This document shows positions 8,898 to 15,166 of a DNA stretch of 16,070 nt, in pieces. The DNA lies in assembly GCA_025458365.1 (NCBI GenBank), contig JALOSP010000008.1:1-16070 (forward strand), in the 5' to 3' direction. Under the pieces are notes generated by a model that was not told where the DNA came from, ran no database searches, and saw nothing but the letters and a program-made list of their open reading frames with translations. The stretch is from Hyphomonadaceae bacterium (GTDB taxonomy: Bacteria > Pseudomonadota > Alphaproteobacteria > Caulobacterales > Aquidulcibacteraceae). The translations under genes and the position numbers were made by a program. The first letter of the stretch is position 1; every line of letters starts with the position of its first letter.

Positions 8898-9521
8898 TCA
8901 GGATGGCAGGTCGCGCGCAGCGAGCTTCTCAAGCTGTTCCTGCATTGCGGCCATCTGGGCCTTGAGGGCTTCCAGTTCCGCATTGGGCTTTAAGGTCCGT
9001 TCCGGTGCTTCGCCGGCTGACCCGGCCCGGGCAGTGCTGCCAACCTTTGGCCAGAAAGCGTCAAGCCCGGCGGCCCCGGGGACCATGTCCTGAAACGACC
9101 GGGCCGCCTCGCCCATCAGGGCAAGGTTGCGATCCATGGCAGACTTGAACATGTCACTCACCACTTGCGGCGACCCTGCTCCGGTCAGCACCTTGGTCCA
9201 CTGGTCCTTGGCCTCGGTGAAGGTCTTCATCGACATGTCGAGATAGTCTGGAAGCACCCCGCCGACCCCACCACTGTACTGCCGGATCAGATCCCGCAGG
9301 AAGCCGACAGGCAGGAGGCCCTCGCCCGCGCTTTCGGATTCTACAATGATCTGGGTCAGGATCTGCCGGGTGATGTCGTCACCGCTGCGAGCATCCTCAA
9401 CGACAAAGTCATGCCCGTCACGGACCAGGGCCGCCACGCTATCCAGAGTCACATAGGTGCTGGTCGCCGTGTTGTAGAGGCGCCTGTTCGCGTACTTCTT
9501 GATGATGATCGTTTCGCTCAT
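8898..9521 (-). CDS. phaR: Polyhydroxyalkanoate synthesis repressor PhaR
   Basis: A 207-residue regulator. Known role: PhaR represses phasin and PHB genes and is released when it binds nascent PHB granules. The N-terminal DNA-binding domain (about 4-63) has the diagnostic [20 protein letters not shown] and [20 protein letters not shown]. The PHB-accumulation domain follows (about 69-101, [16 protein letters not shown]...), with a second amphipathic helical region to ~135 and a C-terminal coiled coil at about 175-203 ([20 protein letters not shown]). ATG 9521 gives the standard N-terminus MSETIIIKK. The frame stays open to 9665, but the extension looks non-coding and no ribosome binding site supports it; none is strong at 9521 either. 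It is divergent from phaA, consistent with a PHB regulon. Confidence 0.93.
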
Positions 9522-9782
9522 GGTCTGGTCATGTCCGTCTGCGGCGCTTCGGGACACGGTGACCGAACCGGCCACACGCGCGGGCCAGCCGAAGCCACAC
9601 CGTCCCCCTGTACAAGCGTCATGTCGCGCTGCAACATGGGCCGCGCAAGGGGCGCGATGCCGCATGGGCAGTCTGTCGCAGGCAGGACGCGTCGCATCCT
9701 TGCATCAGAAGTGTTAGCAAGCGCAAAACAGGGTTGGCACGCGCCAGCTGATATTCAATCCCGTTTGGAAGGACAACGACCC
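9522..9782. promoter_or_regulatory. Divergent phaR-phaA intergenic region
   Basis: This 261-bp gap must hold promoters for both genes. I see no clear sigma-70 pair. Two candidate PhaR-type dyads lie on the phaA side: CTG-TCG-CAG at 9673-9681, and CTTGC (9699-9703) paired with GCAAG (9717-9721) across 13 bases. PhaR sites in other alphaproteobacteria are TTGC/CTGC-based dyads, so these are plausible but unproven operators. Confidence 0.35.
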
Positions 9783-10961
9783 ATGGCCAGCACAGATATT
9801 ATCATCGCATCGGCGGCCCGCACCGCTGTGGGCTCGTTTTCTGGCGCATTCGCCAGTGTTCCCGCCCATACCCTGGGCGCCACAGCGATCAGTGCGGCCA
9901 TCGCGCGTGCCGGGCTCGACGCCGGGGCGGTAGAAGAAGTGATCTTTGGACAGGTCTTGACAGCTGCACAGGGCCAGAACCCGGCACGTCAGGCCAGCCG
10001 GGCGGCCGGTGTCAGTGACGGCGCACCTGCCTGGCTGATCAACCAGGTCTGCGGGTCGGGTCTGCGCACGGTGGCACTGGCAGCCCAGCAGGTGATGACC
10101 GGGGCAGCGGGCATTGTTGTTGCAGGCGGTCAGGAGAGCATGAGCCTGTCGACCCATGCGGCTTTCTTGCGGGCGGGCCAGAAAATGGGCGATCTCGGCA
10201 TGGTCGATACCATGATCCGCGATGGCCTGTGGGACGCGTTCAACGGCTATCACATGGGCACCACGGCTGAAAACGTGGCCGAGCAATGGCAGATCACCCG
10301 TGACGAGCAGGATGCTTTTGCCGCAGCCAGCCAGAACAAGGCGGAAGCCGCCCAGAAGGCCGGGCATTTTGCTGGCGAGATCACGCCCGTCACGGTCAAG
10401 GGCCGCAAAGGCGACACCATCGTCGATGCTGACGAATACATCCGGCATGGCGCCACGGTGGAAGCGATGGCGGCACTGCGCCCAGCCTTCAAGAAGGACG
10501 GCACCGTTACGGCCGGCAATGCCTCTGGCATCAATGATGGTGCCGCGGCTCTGGTCATCATGAGTGCTGCAGAAGCAGACCGGCGCGGGATCACGCCGCT
10601 GGCCCGGATTGCCAGCTTTGCTACTGCGGGGGTTGATCCTTCAATCATGGGGACCGGGCCGATCCCGGCGTCACGCAAGGCGCTGGAAAAGGCTGGATGG
10701 ACGGTGAACGACCTTGACCTGATCGAAGCGAACGAGGCCTTTGCGGCCCAGGCCATCGCGGTCAATCGCGACATGGGATGGGACACAGCCAAGGTCAACG
10801 TCAACGGCGGAGCCATTGCCATCGGCCATCCGATCGGCGCATCGGGCGCGCGCGTGCTGGTGACCCTGTTGCACGAAATGGCCCGCCGCGACGCGAAAAA
10901 GGGGCTGGCGACACTTTGCATCGGCGGCGGGATGGGTGTTGCGCTGACTGTCGAGCGCTAG
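9783..10961 (+). CDS. phaA: Acetyl-CoA acetyltransferase (beta-ketothiolase)
   Basis: A 392-residue biosynthetic-type thiolase condensing two acetyl-CoA to acetoacetyl-CoA, the first step of PHB synthesis, and reversible for ketone use. The catalytic residues are all present: the acylated C90 in [10 protein letters not shown]349 in [13 protein letters not shown] and the proton-transfer C379 in TLCIGGGMG, one residue offset from the Zoogloea enzyme. GGQESMS (about 117-123) and the NEAFAAQ motif are also intact. I chose ATG 9783 because GGAAGGA lies nine bases upstream and the protein then starts at the usual [17 protein letters not shown]; the frame is open further upstream without coding character. 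Divergence from phaR supports the phaA label, but phaB does not follow (the next gene is convergent cysH), so an atoB/catabolic role is possible. Confidence 0.92.
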
Positions 10962-11801: not shown

Positions 11802-12500
11802 TCACCACGCTGCGGGATCGGCGGGGGGCAACAGGTCTGCAAGACTGACGCGCAGATCAGCTGCACGGTCGGCCATCAACAAGCCCCGCCCTGCCAAGGC
11901 CAGCGCCAGAGGCGAGCCCTGGCGGACCCAGACCCGGCTGAACCCCTCGCCACCCATCCGGTCCAGCGCCGTCTCGAACGTCTCGCCCTGGCCAAGGGCG
12001 AAGGGCGCCTCGAAGCCATTCCCGTCATCACTGGCCGCGACCATCGGCCTGCCAGTTGCCAGCCGGGTGAGGAACCCCTGATGCAGCGCCCCGGCCAGCT
12101 CAGCCCGGCAACCGACGGATACCGCGATACCCTGTGCTGCAAGGCGGGCCACGCCGTCACCGGCGGTGCGCGGGTCAGGATCGATGATGGCCACCACAAC
12201 ACGAGCGACGCCCGCCTCGATCAGGCCCGCGCTGCACGACGGCCCGCGCGGGCTGACATGGGCGCACGGCTCCAGCGTGACATAGAGGGTGGCACCGCGC
12301 GCTGCATGGCCGGCGGCGGCAAGGGCAACGGCCTCAGCGTGGGGCCTGCCACCGGGCTGTGTGACCCCTGTAGAGATGATTTCACCATCGCGCACCAGCA
12401 CCGCGCCGACGGTCGGATTGGGACAGGTGCTGCCCAGGAGCGGGACTGCGGCAGCAACCGCCACCGCCATGAACCGGTCATCGGCGAGACCGGGGCACAT
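11802..12500 (-). CDS. RibD-like deaminase with truncated reductase domain
   Basis: A 232-residue protein. The first ~145 residues are a RibD-type cytidine-deaminase-fold domain: CPNPTVGAVLV (about 26-36), zinc ligand and acid in GGRPHAEAVAL, the second zinc site LEPCAHVSPRGPSC, then DPDPRTAGDG and the usual end GFLTRLATGRPMV. Normal RibD (about 360 residues) continues with a ~210-residue NADPH reductase domain. Here fewer than 90 residues remain: AASDDG resembles the start (AASLDG) of that domain, and the text then jumps to what looks like its C-terminal part (ETALDRMGGEGFSRVWV), where the cofactor-site EGG reads RQG. The nucleotide-binding core is missing, so reductase activity is very unlikely; deaminase activity is possible. 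ATG 12500 overlaps the gpmA stop (TGATG). It is not in a riboflavin operon, so it may be a paralogue. Confidence 0.72.
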   Translation of the reverse strand: MCPGLADDRFMAVAVAAAVPLLGSTCPNPTVGAVLVRDGEIISTGVTQPGGRPHAEAVALAAAGHAARGATLYVTLEPCAHVSPRGPSCSAGLIEAGVARVVVAIIDPDPRTAGDGVARLAAQGIAVSVGCRAELAGALHQGFLTRLATGRPMVAASDDGNGFEAPFALGQGETFETALDRMGGEGFSRVWVRQGSPLALALAGRGLLMADRAADLRVSLADLLPPADPAAW

Positions 12501-13219
12501 CAGGGCAGCGCGGGCAGCGGTGTTGCGCGCTCGGGATCAAGATAACGCACGCCAACTGGCCGCAGCGCCTCATCCAGATCGATCAGCAACGGGTTGCCAG
12601 TCGGGATTTCGACCTCGGTGATTGTGGCATCAGGGACTGCAAACAAATGCTTGACCAGCGCCCGCAGGCTGTTGCCATGGGCGGCGATGATCACATTGCC
12701 CTGCCCCAGCGCGGGGGCAATCGTGTCCTGCCAGTAGGGCAGCACCCGCTCAAGCGTGGTTTTCAGACTTTCGGTTGCAGGCAGAAGGTCTTGCGGGACG
12801 GTCGCATAGCGCGCGTCATGGGCAGGATGGCGCGGATCGGATGCTTCAAGCGCAGGCGGCGGAATGTCATAGGACCGGCGCCAGATGTGCACCTGGGCGG
12901 CGCCATGGCGCTCGGCGGTCTCGGCCTTGTTGAGACCGGTCAGCGCGCCATAGTGGCGTTCATTGAGGCGCCAGGATTTTTCCTCTGGCAGCCAACATGC
13001 GTCCATCGCGGTCAATGCCAGCCACAGCGTGCGGATCGCGCGGGTCTGCATCGAGGTGAATGTGCTGGCAAAGGTGAGGCCGGTCGCGGCAATCAGCGCG
13101 CCTGCGGCGCTGGCTTCAGCTTCGCCGCGCTCGGTCAGCGGTACATCATGCCAGCCGGTGAACCGGTTTTCGAGATTCCACTGCGACTGGCCGTGGCGGA
13201 TCAACACGAGGCTGGGCAT
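12500..13219 (-). CDS. gpmA: 2,3-bisphosphoglycerate-dependent phosphoglycerate mutase
   Basis: A 239-residue histidine-phosphatase-superfamily enzyme interconverting 3- and 2-phosphoglycerate in glycolysis/gluconeogenesis. Catalytic and binding residues are present: phosphohistidine H9 in [11 protein letters not shown]60 in MQTRAIRT, E87 in [14 protein letters not shown], and H181 in [14 protein letters not shown]; the dPGM-specific [13 protein letters not shown] block is at 20-32. ATG 13219 has AAAGGA about seven bases upstream. Its stop codon overlaps the start of the RibD-like gene by one base, so the two are translationally coupled, and cysH may follow on the same message. Upstream lies the hairpin-rich 516-bp gap; no clear promoter is seen there on this strand. 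Confidence 0.94.
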
Positions 13220-13298
13220 CTGGGGTTCCTTTGATTGGTCCTGACGAGGTCTTGTGCGCAGGCTGTGACCGAGACGGTCGGGCCGATCAAGTCCTCTT

Positions 13299-13326
13299 GA
13301 TCAATTTGCGTTTGGACGGAACCGTC
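13299..13326 (+). repeat. Second copy of the phaA-cysH hairpin motif (decayed)
   Basis: This 28-bp segment matches 10961-10988 at 24 of 28 positions, starting with GATCAAT and covering the left hairpin arm GCGTxTGGAC and the loop. The right arm is altered, so the long stem is lost, leaving GACGG-AA-CCGTC. It lies about 80 bp upstream of gpmA. Confidence 0.5.
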
Positions 13327-13522
13327 TGACAGAAAACAGCGTGATCAAGAGCGAGGGTCTGCTGCGGCATGAGCGCGCACCGGCGCGCTCTCTGACAGGA
13401 TCCAGCGGCTCTGTCGGGCATTTTACCGGCAGTAAGCCTCGCCCCGGAGCGATCTGGCTTAAATGCATATGCTCGCCAAGTGAGCATTGCAGATTCGCAT
13501 TTCGCACTTGCGTCATGCCGGT

Positions 13523-13551
13523 TTGACTTCCCAGGATGCCAGGACCATCTT
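13523..13551 (+). promoter_or_regulatory. Promoter of candidate small RNA, with dyad over the -10
   Basis: TTGACT (13523-13528) and CATCTT (13546-13551) are separated by exactly 17 bp. The -35 matches five of six bases; the -10 is weak (three of six). A start six to eight bases on falls at 13557-13559, exactly where the first RNA stem begins. A dyad GACCA-TCT-TGGTC (13543-13555) covers the -10 and could be an operator. Confidence 0.45.
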
Positions 13552-13557
13552 GGTCAT

Positions 13558-13644
13558 GACGCGAGAGCGTCAATGCCCTTTTGCAAGGGCGTTTCCTCCC
13601 TAGCATACCTTACAAAGCCGGGCTTCGCGCCCGGCTTCTTTTTT
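13558..13644 (+). ncRNA. Candidate trans-acting small RNA (~87 nt) with anti-SD motif
   Basis: The predicted transcript folds by eye into three separate hairpins: GACGC-GAGA-GCGTC (13558-13571, a GNRA tetraloop), GCCCTT-TTGC-AAGGGC (13575-13590), and the terminator AAGCCGGGC/GCCCGGCTT (13615-13637) followed by six T. Between hairpins 2 and 3 an unpaired linker (13591-13614) contains TTTCCTCCCT, complementary to Shine-Dalgarno sequences. Alphaproteobacteria have families of small RNAs (alpha-r14 'cuckoo' type, Rhodobacter CcsR type) built as hairpins with exposed CCUCCUCCC-like motifs that pair with mRNA ribosome binding sites; this architecture is similar. It is not 4.5S, tmRNA or a tRNA by conserved motifs. 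No reading frame in it is worth calling. Confidence 0.55.
13615..13644 (+). terminator. Intrinsic terminator, + strand
   Basis: A perfect 9-bp GC-rich stem AAGCCGGGC / GCCCGGCTT with loop TTCGC is followed by C and six T (13639-13644). No protein gene on the + strand ends nearby, so it most likely ends the candidate small RNA. Confidence 0.85.
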
Positions 13645-13682
13645 GTTGCGTTGCAACATTTCAGATGCAAGGCCGCTCCACG

Positions 13683-13711
13683 AAAAAGGGTGGCGCACAC
13701 GCACCACCCTT
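13683..13711 (-). terminator. Intrinsic terminator of the OmpA-family gene
   Basis: Read on the minus strand, AAGGGTGG pairs with CCACCCTT, with two further G-C pairs inside and a GTGT loop, and the stem runs into five T (complement of the A run at 13683-13687). It lies 25-53 bp past the stop of the OmpA-family gene and faces the + strand terminator at 13615-13644. Confidence 0.85.
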
Positions 13712-13735
13712 GATCCGATCACTTGGAACGCTGGA

Positions 13736-15166
13736 CTATTTCGCGTCGCTCGGAGCTGCGGGGGCTGCGGGGGCCGCACCTGCCGCCGTCACCGTGAACT
13801 CGATCCGGCGGTTGGCTTCATTGGCCGTCTGGTCAGCTGTCGGTTCTTTCAGCTTGGCCTCGCCATAGCCCACGGCAGACAGTGTTGTCGCCGCAACACC
13901 AGCCTCGACCCAGAACGCCTTGACTGCTTCGGCACGCGACTGGCTCAGCGCCTGATTGTTCTCGGGCAGACCGACCGTATCGGTGTGACCGCCCACTTCG
14001 ATCGTGTGGCTGGCACAGGCGGACGCGATTCCGGTCAACGCATTCAGCAGCGAACGCGAGCTGTCATTGATCACAGCCGAACCGGTTGTGAAATTGATTG
14101 TGCGTCCTGCCATCGTGTCACCGAAGGCCTTCTGGCAGGCGGCGACATCCGGGTTTGGACCCAGTGCGGCAAGCGCTGCACCAACCGGTGTGTCGGTTGC
14201 ACCGGTTACCGCGATATTGTCGATGACCCGGGCATCCTTGCCTTCCGCCGAAGCGGTCAATGCCGCCTGAAGGTCGGCGAGGGCGGTGTCCTTGGCGGCC
14301 TGATCCGGGGCTGTACCGCTTGCGATCACCTGTGTGGCCGATCCACCCAGCCCGAGCCAGGCAAAGGTGCCCTTCAGATTGTCACCGATTGCGGTCAGCC
14401 AGGCAGGCACAGCAGGTGCTGCAGGCGCAGCCGGAGCCGCTGCTACAGCCGTTTCTTCGGGGGCTTTGCCAATGAACAGCGAACTGCCCAGCCACGCCAG
14501 GCCGACAATGCCGACAAGCCCAACCAGCGGAACCAGCCAGCCACCGCCGGTCCGGTCAACTTCTTCCTCGTCGCCAGCAAGGCGACCGCGACCGGCATAA
14601 GCCCCCGCTGCACTCGAGTCTGAACCCGACCCCGACAGCGCGCCAAGCCCCTTGCCAACGCCACCGACCAGACCACCTGCAACCGCACCGGCAGCTGCAA
14701 GGCCAGCCGCACCAGCACCTGCTGCTGCACCGGCACCTTTGCCGACCATGTCAACCGCACCGCCGGCCACGTCACCGACCGCGCCAGTCAGGCCCGACAC
14801 GGCATCGCCAACGGCATCTGTTACAGCCCCGGCAACGCCCTTGGCTGCATCAACCGCACCGTCGGCCACGTCACCGACCGCGCCAGTCAGGCCTGACACG
14901 GTATCGCCAACGGCATCCGTCACGGCCCCGGCAACGCCCTTGGCTGCATCAACGGCACCACCGGCCGCATCACCGACGGCCTCGGTCACACTCGATACAG
15001 CCTCGCCAGCGGCTTCACCGGCTGCTTTGGCTGCACCCGCTGCAGCTGCAGCAGCACCTCCGACCAGCCCGCCGACCGCGCCCAGCGCGCCCTTGGCCGC
15101 TTTGGTCGCGCGCGTGGTTTTTTTCGCTGCCGCAGGTTTGCCAGCGTCTTGGTTGTCGTCAGACAT
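13736..15166 (-). CDS. OmpA-family protein with Ala/Gly-rich repeats and one transmembrane helix
   Basis: A 476-residue protein. There is no N-terminal signal peptide: it starts MSDDNQDAGKPAAAKKTTRA, followed by a low-complexity Ala/Gly/Val region (about 20-176) with a 33-residue repeat of the form GAVDAAKGVAGAVTDAVGD. A single membrane helix (about 210-232, WLVPLVGLVGIVGLAWLGSSLF) is followed by an Ala-Pro linker, a region that may be BON-like (about 290-325), and a C-terminal OmpA peptidoglycan-binding domain (about 356-459) with INFTTGSAVI, VGGHTDTVG, NNQALSQSRAEAV and ANRRIEF. Inferred topology: repeats in the cytoplasm, OmpA domain in the periplasm bound to peptidoglycan, anchored in the inner membrane. 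ATG 15166 has GGGGG six bases upstream; ATG 15172 is possible. It lies downstream of rpoH by 169 bp, a gap with only a weak TTGACT promoter hint. Confidence 0.82.
   Translation of the reverse strand: MSDDNQDAGKPAAAKKTTRATKAAKGALGAVGGLVGGAAAAAAGAAKAAGEAAGEAVSSVTEAVGDAAGGAVDAAKGVAGAVTDAVGDTVSGLTGAVGDVADGAVDAAKGVAGAVTDAVGDAVSGLTGAVGDVAGGAVDMVGKGAGAAAGAGAAGLAAAGAVAGGLVGGVGKGLGALSGSGSDSSAAGAYAGRGRLAGDEEEVDRTGGGWLVPLVGLVGIVGLAWLGSSLFIGKAPEETAVAAAPAAPAAPAVPAWLTAIGDNLKGTFAWLGLGGSATQVIASGTAPDQAAKDTALADLQAALTASAEGKDARVIDNIAVTGATDTPVGAALAALGPNPDVAACQKAFGDTMAGRTINFTTGSAVINDSSRSLLNALTGIASACASHTIEVGGHTDTVGLPENNQALSQSRAEAVKAFWVEAGVAATTLSAVGYGEAKLKEPTADQTANEANRRIEFTVTAAGAAPAAPAAPSDAK
14757..14980 (-). repeat. 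99-bp tandem repeat inside the OmpA-family gene
   Basis: Two adjacent 99-bp units (14757-14855 and 14856-14954) differ at seven positions, and a partial third copy runs to about 14980. Each encodes 33 residues, so copy-number change keeps the frame. Substitutions are mostly at third codon positions, suggesting selection on the protein. Confidence 0.85.

Follow-up and report, generated by a model that had tools for sequence, protein, structure and literature searches.

An alpha-r8 (MmgR/SuhB/Sis) small RNA gene with a changed neighbour gene and promoter in an alphaproteobacterial genome

Analysis of the window, the whole stretch of 16,070 nucleotides, placed a small RNA gene of approximately 88 nt at positions 13557-13644 on the + strand, with both ends predicted. 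From its match to the Rfam family RF00519, its match to a home-made model (R1) and the z-score of its fold, the gene was identified, with a probability of roughly 0.8, as the alpha-r8 (MmgR/SuhB/Sis) orthologue of this genome, an RNA that would act on ribosome binding sites. The alpha-r8 family is already known from the alphaproteobacteria, and as an RNA this member is ordinary; what differs here from the usual alpha-r8 state is the neighbour gene and the promoter, both of which have changed in a lineage-specific manner.

The whole window was compared with 4227 Rfam families, and RF00519 (suhB/mmgR) was the sole match at the gathering threshold. Positions 13568-13651 scored 48.3 bits against a cut-off of 41 (E = 1.8e-7), and the match spanned the entire model (1-77). 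Furthermore, the 10-mer UUUCCUCCCU of the window was identical, letter for letter, to the published alpha-r8 10-mer (PMC12559287). Since the score exceeded the curated cut-off and the linker was identical to the alpha-r8 10-mer, the RNA is not regarded as new. Model R1, which had 13 seed rows including the window's own RNA, matched positions 13557-13643. RF00519 was above its cut-off in all 60 genomes of the taxonomic family, the window's genome included; two of the 14 control genomes (Caulobacter vibrioides and Thermus composti) also gave a match, in one case over the cut-off. A search of open papers by title and abstract revealed none that describes this genome's copy; papers on the phylogeny of the family and on the control of mmgR may contain it. 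Two sequences, L233 (genome G005) and L238 (genome G013), represented a second alpha-r8-like type, with the core UUUCCUCCCCCGAGG and a differing 5' part. Among the matches listed, the alpha-r8 core pattern was also present on a contig (L123) labelled Burkholderiaceae (MAG), which is perhaps mis-binned.

A preliminary description of this DNA had regarded the RNA as alpha-r14- or CcsR-like, a reading to which the exposed CCUCCC-type motif lends itself. CcsR-like small RNAs carry a CCUCCUCCC-type motif; the motif in the window's RNA is UUUCCUCCCU. The Rfam comparison that the description had suggested did place the region in a family, but that family was RF00519 and none of ar14, ar15, ar35 or ar45. 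None of these four models was among the 15 Rfam matches obtained at E ≤ 5 between positions 13400 and 13800, where RF00519 was far ahead of the runner-up, SorX (RF02784), a weak resemblance only, with 30.1 bits against its cut-off of 46.6. The alpha-r14 or CcsR-like assignment is now barely plausible.

RNAfold predicted three hairpins for positions 13557-13645 (-38 kcal/mol, z = -4.89), and none of 200 shuffled sequences was equally stable. The first, SL1, is a 6-bp hairpin, TGACGC-GAGA-GCGTCA (13557-13572, + strand); the second, SL2, is AUGCCCUU-UUGC-AAGGGCGU (13573-13592, + strand), with its GCCC/GGGC core in the Rfam alignment. The alpha-r8 10-mer, the proposed pairing seed, follows at 13592-13601 (+ strand) between SL2 and the terminator. 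It occurs once in the window and was predicted to be mostly unpaired (mean probability 0.85), the last pair of the preceding hairpin, which is 8 bp long in the fold, using the first U of UUUCCUCCCU. The feature by which alpha-r8 RNAs are defined (PMC12559287), a weak hairpin with an unpaired 5'-UUUCCUCCCU-3' after it, is thus present, with the 10-mer at 13592-13601. A Rho-independent terminator, also expected of alpha-r8, was detected at 13615-13644 (+ strand) in both the fold and the terminator scan; its stem occupies 13615-13637 and is followed by a C and six T. The scan returned two terminator-like sites in the interval 13220-13735, compared to 0.5 expected. The second site was a perfect 7-bp hairpin, GATCAAG-TCCT-CTTGATC, at 13285-13302 in the gpmA leader region.

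Much of the preliminary description was borne out: a small RNA gene that stands alone, with a promoter place of its own, three hairpins, an unpaired linker that resembles an exposed anti-Shine-Dalgarno segment, and a terminator with six T on a strand where no protein gene ends, both flanking genes lying on the - strand. Its claim that the transcript start coincides with the first stem held in that SL1 lies at the predicted start; the stem begins at 13557, one base before the proposed start at 13558.

The description had also asked for covariation in the stems, and this was found in both of the alignments that were scored. When 13 near relatives (12 distinct sequences) were aligned by MAFFT, 94.4% of cells paired, compared to 88.6% in shuffles; double changes were seen in 5 pairs as against 1.3, and the score was 0.206 as against 0.091. 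The other alignment took in 59 matches (55 distinct) and was fitted to the model; because it was fitted to structure, it leans towards structure. In it, 95.8% of cells were paired, double changes occurred in 14 of 18 pairs, and the score was 0.559 compared to 0.129 for shuffled and 0.05-0.113 for slid alignments. Stems were counted on alignments A2 and A3; A1 was left out of these counts because it misplaced stems. The signal was carried by SL1, in which five of the six pairs had changed on both sides, and by the terminator helix, in which each of the 8 pairs had changed on both sides in some sequence (55 distinct sequences in each case). SL2 hardly varies, and was partly out of register in the model-fitted alignment (87.2% of cells paired). 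Both UUUCCUCCC of the 10-mer region and GGGCGTTTCCTCCC were invariant in the 53 sequences of the first alignment; two copies outside that alignment had a changed base before the core (TGGCG in L211 and CGGCG in L239). Terminator-like sites are common, as the second one at 13285-13302 illustrates; even so, given the family match, its presence in 60 of 60 genomes and the covariation, it is scarcely credible that the locus consists of a terminator plus chance hairpins and nothing more.

The promoter proposed in the preliminary description, TTGACT-N17-CATCTT, was confirmed as to its letters. The -35 element TTGACT (13523-13528, + strand) aligned with the TTGCTT/TTGA of nine relatives, and the -10 element CATCTT (13546-13551, + strand), which has only three of six positions in common with TATAAT, aligned with the TATATA/TATATT stretch of relatives from genus g13; the spacer is 17 nt. 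A consensus promoter scan returned no sites, so this pair of elements does not pass it. When the window was aligned by MAFFT with nine relatives from genera g5 and g13, the -35, the spacer, the -10 and position +1 were all in register, and this colinearity supports the proposed promoter and start, poor as the -10 is. The same description had read a dyad over the -10, GACCATCTTGGTC (GACCA-TCT-TGGTC, 13543-13555), as a sign of regulation. The dyad is present, at chance level: of 2268 hexamers sampled from the window, 500 overlapped a perfect dyad with 5-bp arms and a loop of 0-8. Moreover, L026 and L216, two g13 relatives, lack its left arm and have a whole or partial right arm. It was therefore rejected as an operator.

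The relatives have a promoter dyad of their own, YGCR-N1-YGCR (YGCR-N2-YGCR in g5 and g13), in the 50 nt that precede the stem region. It is a regulatory feature and does not define the family. It was intact in all 59 relatives (57/57, then two further), which are related to each other and hence are not 59 independent cases. Genome G005 was represented in this survey by the second of its copies, which at 40.4 bits falls slightly short of the cut-off, the other copy being of the divergent type. As background, the dyad was found in 179 of 11600 shuffled promoters and in 207 of 1799 flanking 50-nt windows. In the g5 and g13 sequences L009-L015, L026, L027, L037, L216, L217 and L221 the spacing was one base longer (YGCR-NN-YGCR) than in the remaining genera, as if the binding preference had shifted.

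In the window this dyad is degenerate. The best match to its core in the promoter (13523-13552) had five of eight positions, and the corresponding sequence, CCAGGATGCC (13531-13540), lies at about the place of the PhaR/AniA-like dyad of the relatives. An insertion of approximately 28 bp that would have shifted the operator upstream was considered and rejected, as the promoter stayed in register under MAFFT and the dyad is degraded at its own site. Further upstream, a dyad CGCACTTGCG (13503-13512) aligned with TGCACTTGCA of two g13 relatives; sites of this type numbered 15 in the window compared to 23 expected, which is not above chance. Among the matches listed from named records, 87 of 119 copies had the YGCR dyad (64 nt upstream), compared to 277 of 2843 flanking 64-nt windows. 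It was found in 48 of 57 copies linked to an FGase gene as against 30 of 51 without one (Fisher p = 0.005), the link being called with 22 queries and the reading frame under the match, and in 9 of 11 copies short of downstream DNA, all among the matches listed; one further copy was cut off. Since copies without the dyad do occur in named records, its absence from the window is unusual and not unique.

The YGCR dyad has the core of the PhaR/AniA consensus, PhaR being the PHB regulator, and the mmgR promoter of Sinorhizobium meliloti contains a site of this kind to which PhaR binds (PMC12542648). Of 58 promoters, only 11 conformed to the full 21-nt S. meliloti consensus, taken from the same source; for this reason that consensus was dropped as a test for the dyad in favour of the 8-position core, and the label "PhaR-like" refers to that core. 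A full match to the 21-nt consensus, TTTTGTTGCGTTGCAACATTT, does occur just after the terminator (13641-13661, + strand). It is the only one in the window, where 0.10 was expected, and 18 of 200 shuffled sequences had one; it may be due to chance. Of 57 other copies examined at this post-terminator place, only one had even the short core. The window also encodes phaR itself, the PHB accumulation regulator (8898-9521, - strand), divergent from a thiolase gene (9777-10961, + strand), so that this pair lies a few kb from an RNA whose family is tied to PHB. Two PhaR-like cores (9625 and 9688) are situated between phaR and the thiolase gene; such cores numbered 19 compared to 22.7 expected, which is not above chance. 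The PHB synthase gene, phaC, was present in the window's own genome.

Because the promoter dyad is degenerate, PhaR has probably lost much or all of its direct repression at the promoter core in this lineage. The wide retention of the dyad elsewhere (59 of 59 relatives, and 87 of 119 copies among the matches listed) points to PHB control as an old and general trait of alpha-r8, from which the window departs. A tentative extension, conceivable if doubtful, is that this lineage has uncoupled alpha-r8 from direct repression by PhaR, and hence from PHB sensing: the operator would have decayed within a promoter that is conserved in other respects, while the phaR, thiolase and PHB synthase genes were kept, and PhaR, if it acts, would do so via 13503-13512 or 13641-13661. 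If true, this uncoupling would be a case of natural rewiring in the feedback control of carbon storage. Among open papers searched by title and abstract, none surveyed alpha-r8 promoters for the PhaR-like site; papers on the family phylogeny and on mmgR control may contain such a survey.

The second change concerns the neighbour gene, which in alpha-r8 is usually, though not necessarily, FGase. Of the 61 copies above the cut-off, 51 share their contig with an FGase gene (PF05013) no more than 8 kb away, in all 51 cases downstream and convergent, with a median gap of 145 nt. For nine of the remaining ten copies an FGase match lay on another contig; the tenth copy is that of the window, in whose genome (64% complete) FGase was not found. 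Since the assembly is 64% complete, the gene may lie elsewhere. The preliminary description had suggested a check of the synteny between gpmA and the OmpA-family gene in relatives. Upstream, gpmA lay divergent and close to the RNA in all 14 genomes of g5 (nine) and g13 (five); downstream, FGase lay at a distance of 85-139 nt in the same 14, at the place that OmpA occupies here. The window retains gpmA (12500-13219, - strand), the upstream neighbour kept in both genera, and has the OmpA-family gene (13736-15166, - strand; start codon chosen by the analyst) at the place of the convergent FGase on an unbroken contig. Ahead of its OmpA domain, this gene has a long low-complexity stretch of Ala/Val/Gly/Asp repeats (14400-15100, - strand).

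The degenerate dyad, the weak -10 and the missing FGase would also be consistent with a decaying copy that is little expressed, its work being done by another copy. This was judged highly improbable: the structure and the 10-mer are intact, and the window's own genome (64% complete) contained no second match over the cut-off, the next scoring 25.6 bits at a contig edge.

As an orthologue of alpha-r8, the RNA is likely to be a trans-acting anti-Shine-Dalgarno regulator of ribosome binding sites, because its studied relatives (MmgR and SisA-D) bind Hfq and affect PHB storage or carbon use. By extension from these relatives, it would be bound by Hfq, the unpaired UUUCCUCCCU would pair with purine-rich ribosome binding sites, and, as long as preferred carbon is abundant, this pairing would reduce translation of the mRNAs that encode proteins of carbon uptake, catabolism or PHB granules; in the relatives, the PhaR/AniA-like promoter dyad would couple the RNA with PHB status. 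An Hfq gene was present in 39 of the 41 genomes that were searched for it, including all 37 good relatives; it was not found in the window's own genome (64% complete). When targets were sought as the 8-nt complement followed by ATG, there were two sites in the window's own genome and two in the reversed control. Neither of the former was retained: the next long open reading frame after the first, a transporter judging by its sequence, starts 117 nt further down, and the second is at the edge of a contig, where no gene is clear. Duplex energies for the start regions of 12 window genes likewise revealed no better pairing than background (best -13.1, compared to a background 10% quantile of -13.9).

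An RNA that is alpha-r8 by descent might instead mainly titrate Hfq or another small RNA, leaving ribosome binding sites uncovered. The predominant chimera of SisA in Caulobacter is indeed with another small RNA, CrfA, and the 10-mer of alpha-R8 pairs with CrfA, as determined by structure probing and compensatory changes (PMC12559287). CrfA, which is induced by carbon starvation, is the sponge in that pair, however, and SisA lowered 8 of 10 target mRNA reporters, with two only moderately affected (PMC12559287), so that titration as the main role is quite improbable. The assignment to alpha-r8 replaces a guess from raw sequence by a named and experimentally studied family, and so makes Hfq, together with the PHB and carbon genes, the partners to test.

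Among known systems, MmgR of S. meliloti was, according to PMC12559287, the only alpha-R8 member characterised before the work on Caulobacter. It limits both PHB and phasins, under the control of NtrC and AniA, and is not known to have a direct mRNA target (PMC8401924, PMC7143759). The window's RNA belongs to the same Rfam family, RF00519, and its genome likewise has phaR and phaC; in contrast to the PhaR-bound site of the mmgR promoter (PMC12542648), the promoter dyad of the window is degenerate. SisA-D of Caulobacter crescentus have the same 10-mer as the window's RNA, again with a weak hairpin ahead of it and a terminator after it; they differ in being present in four copies, with sisA beside FGase (PMC12559287), as opposed to one copy over the cut-off here and no FGase found. 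SuhB of Sphingopyxis granuli, which with Hfq represses thnR translation in carbon catabolite repression (PMC6563040), carries the name of the Rfam family. It is an Hfq-dependent repressor, and as described it is 61 nt long (PMC6563040), compared to approximately 88 nt for the RNA of the window.
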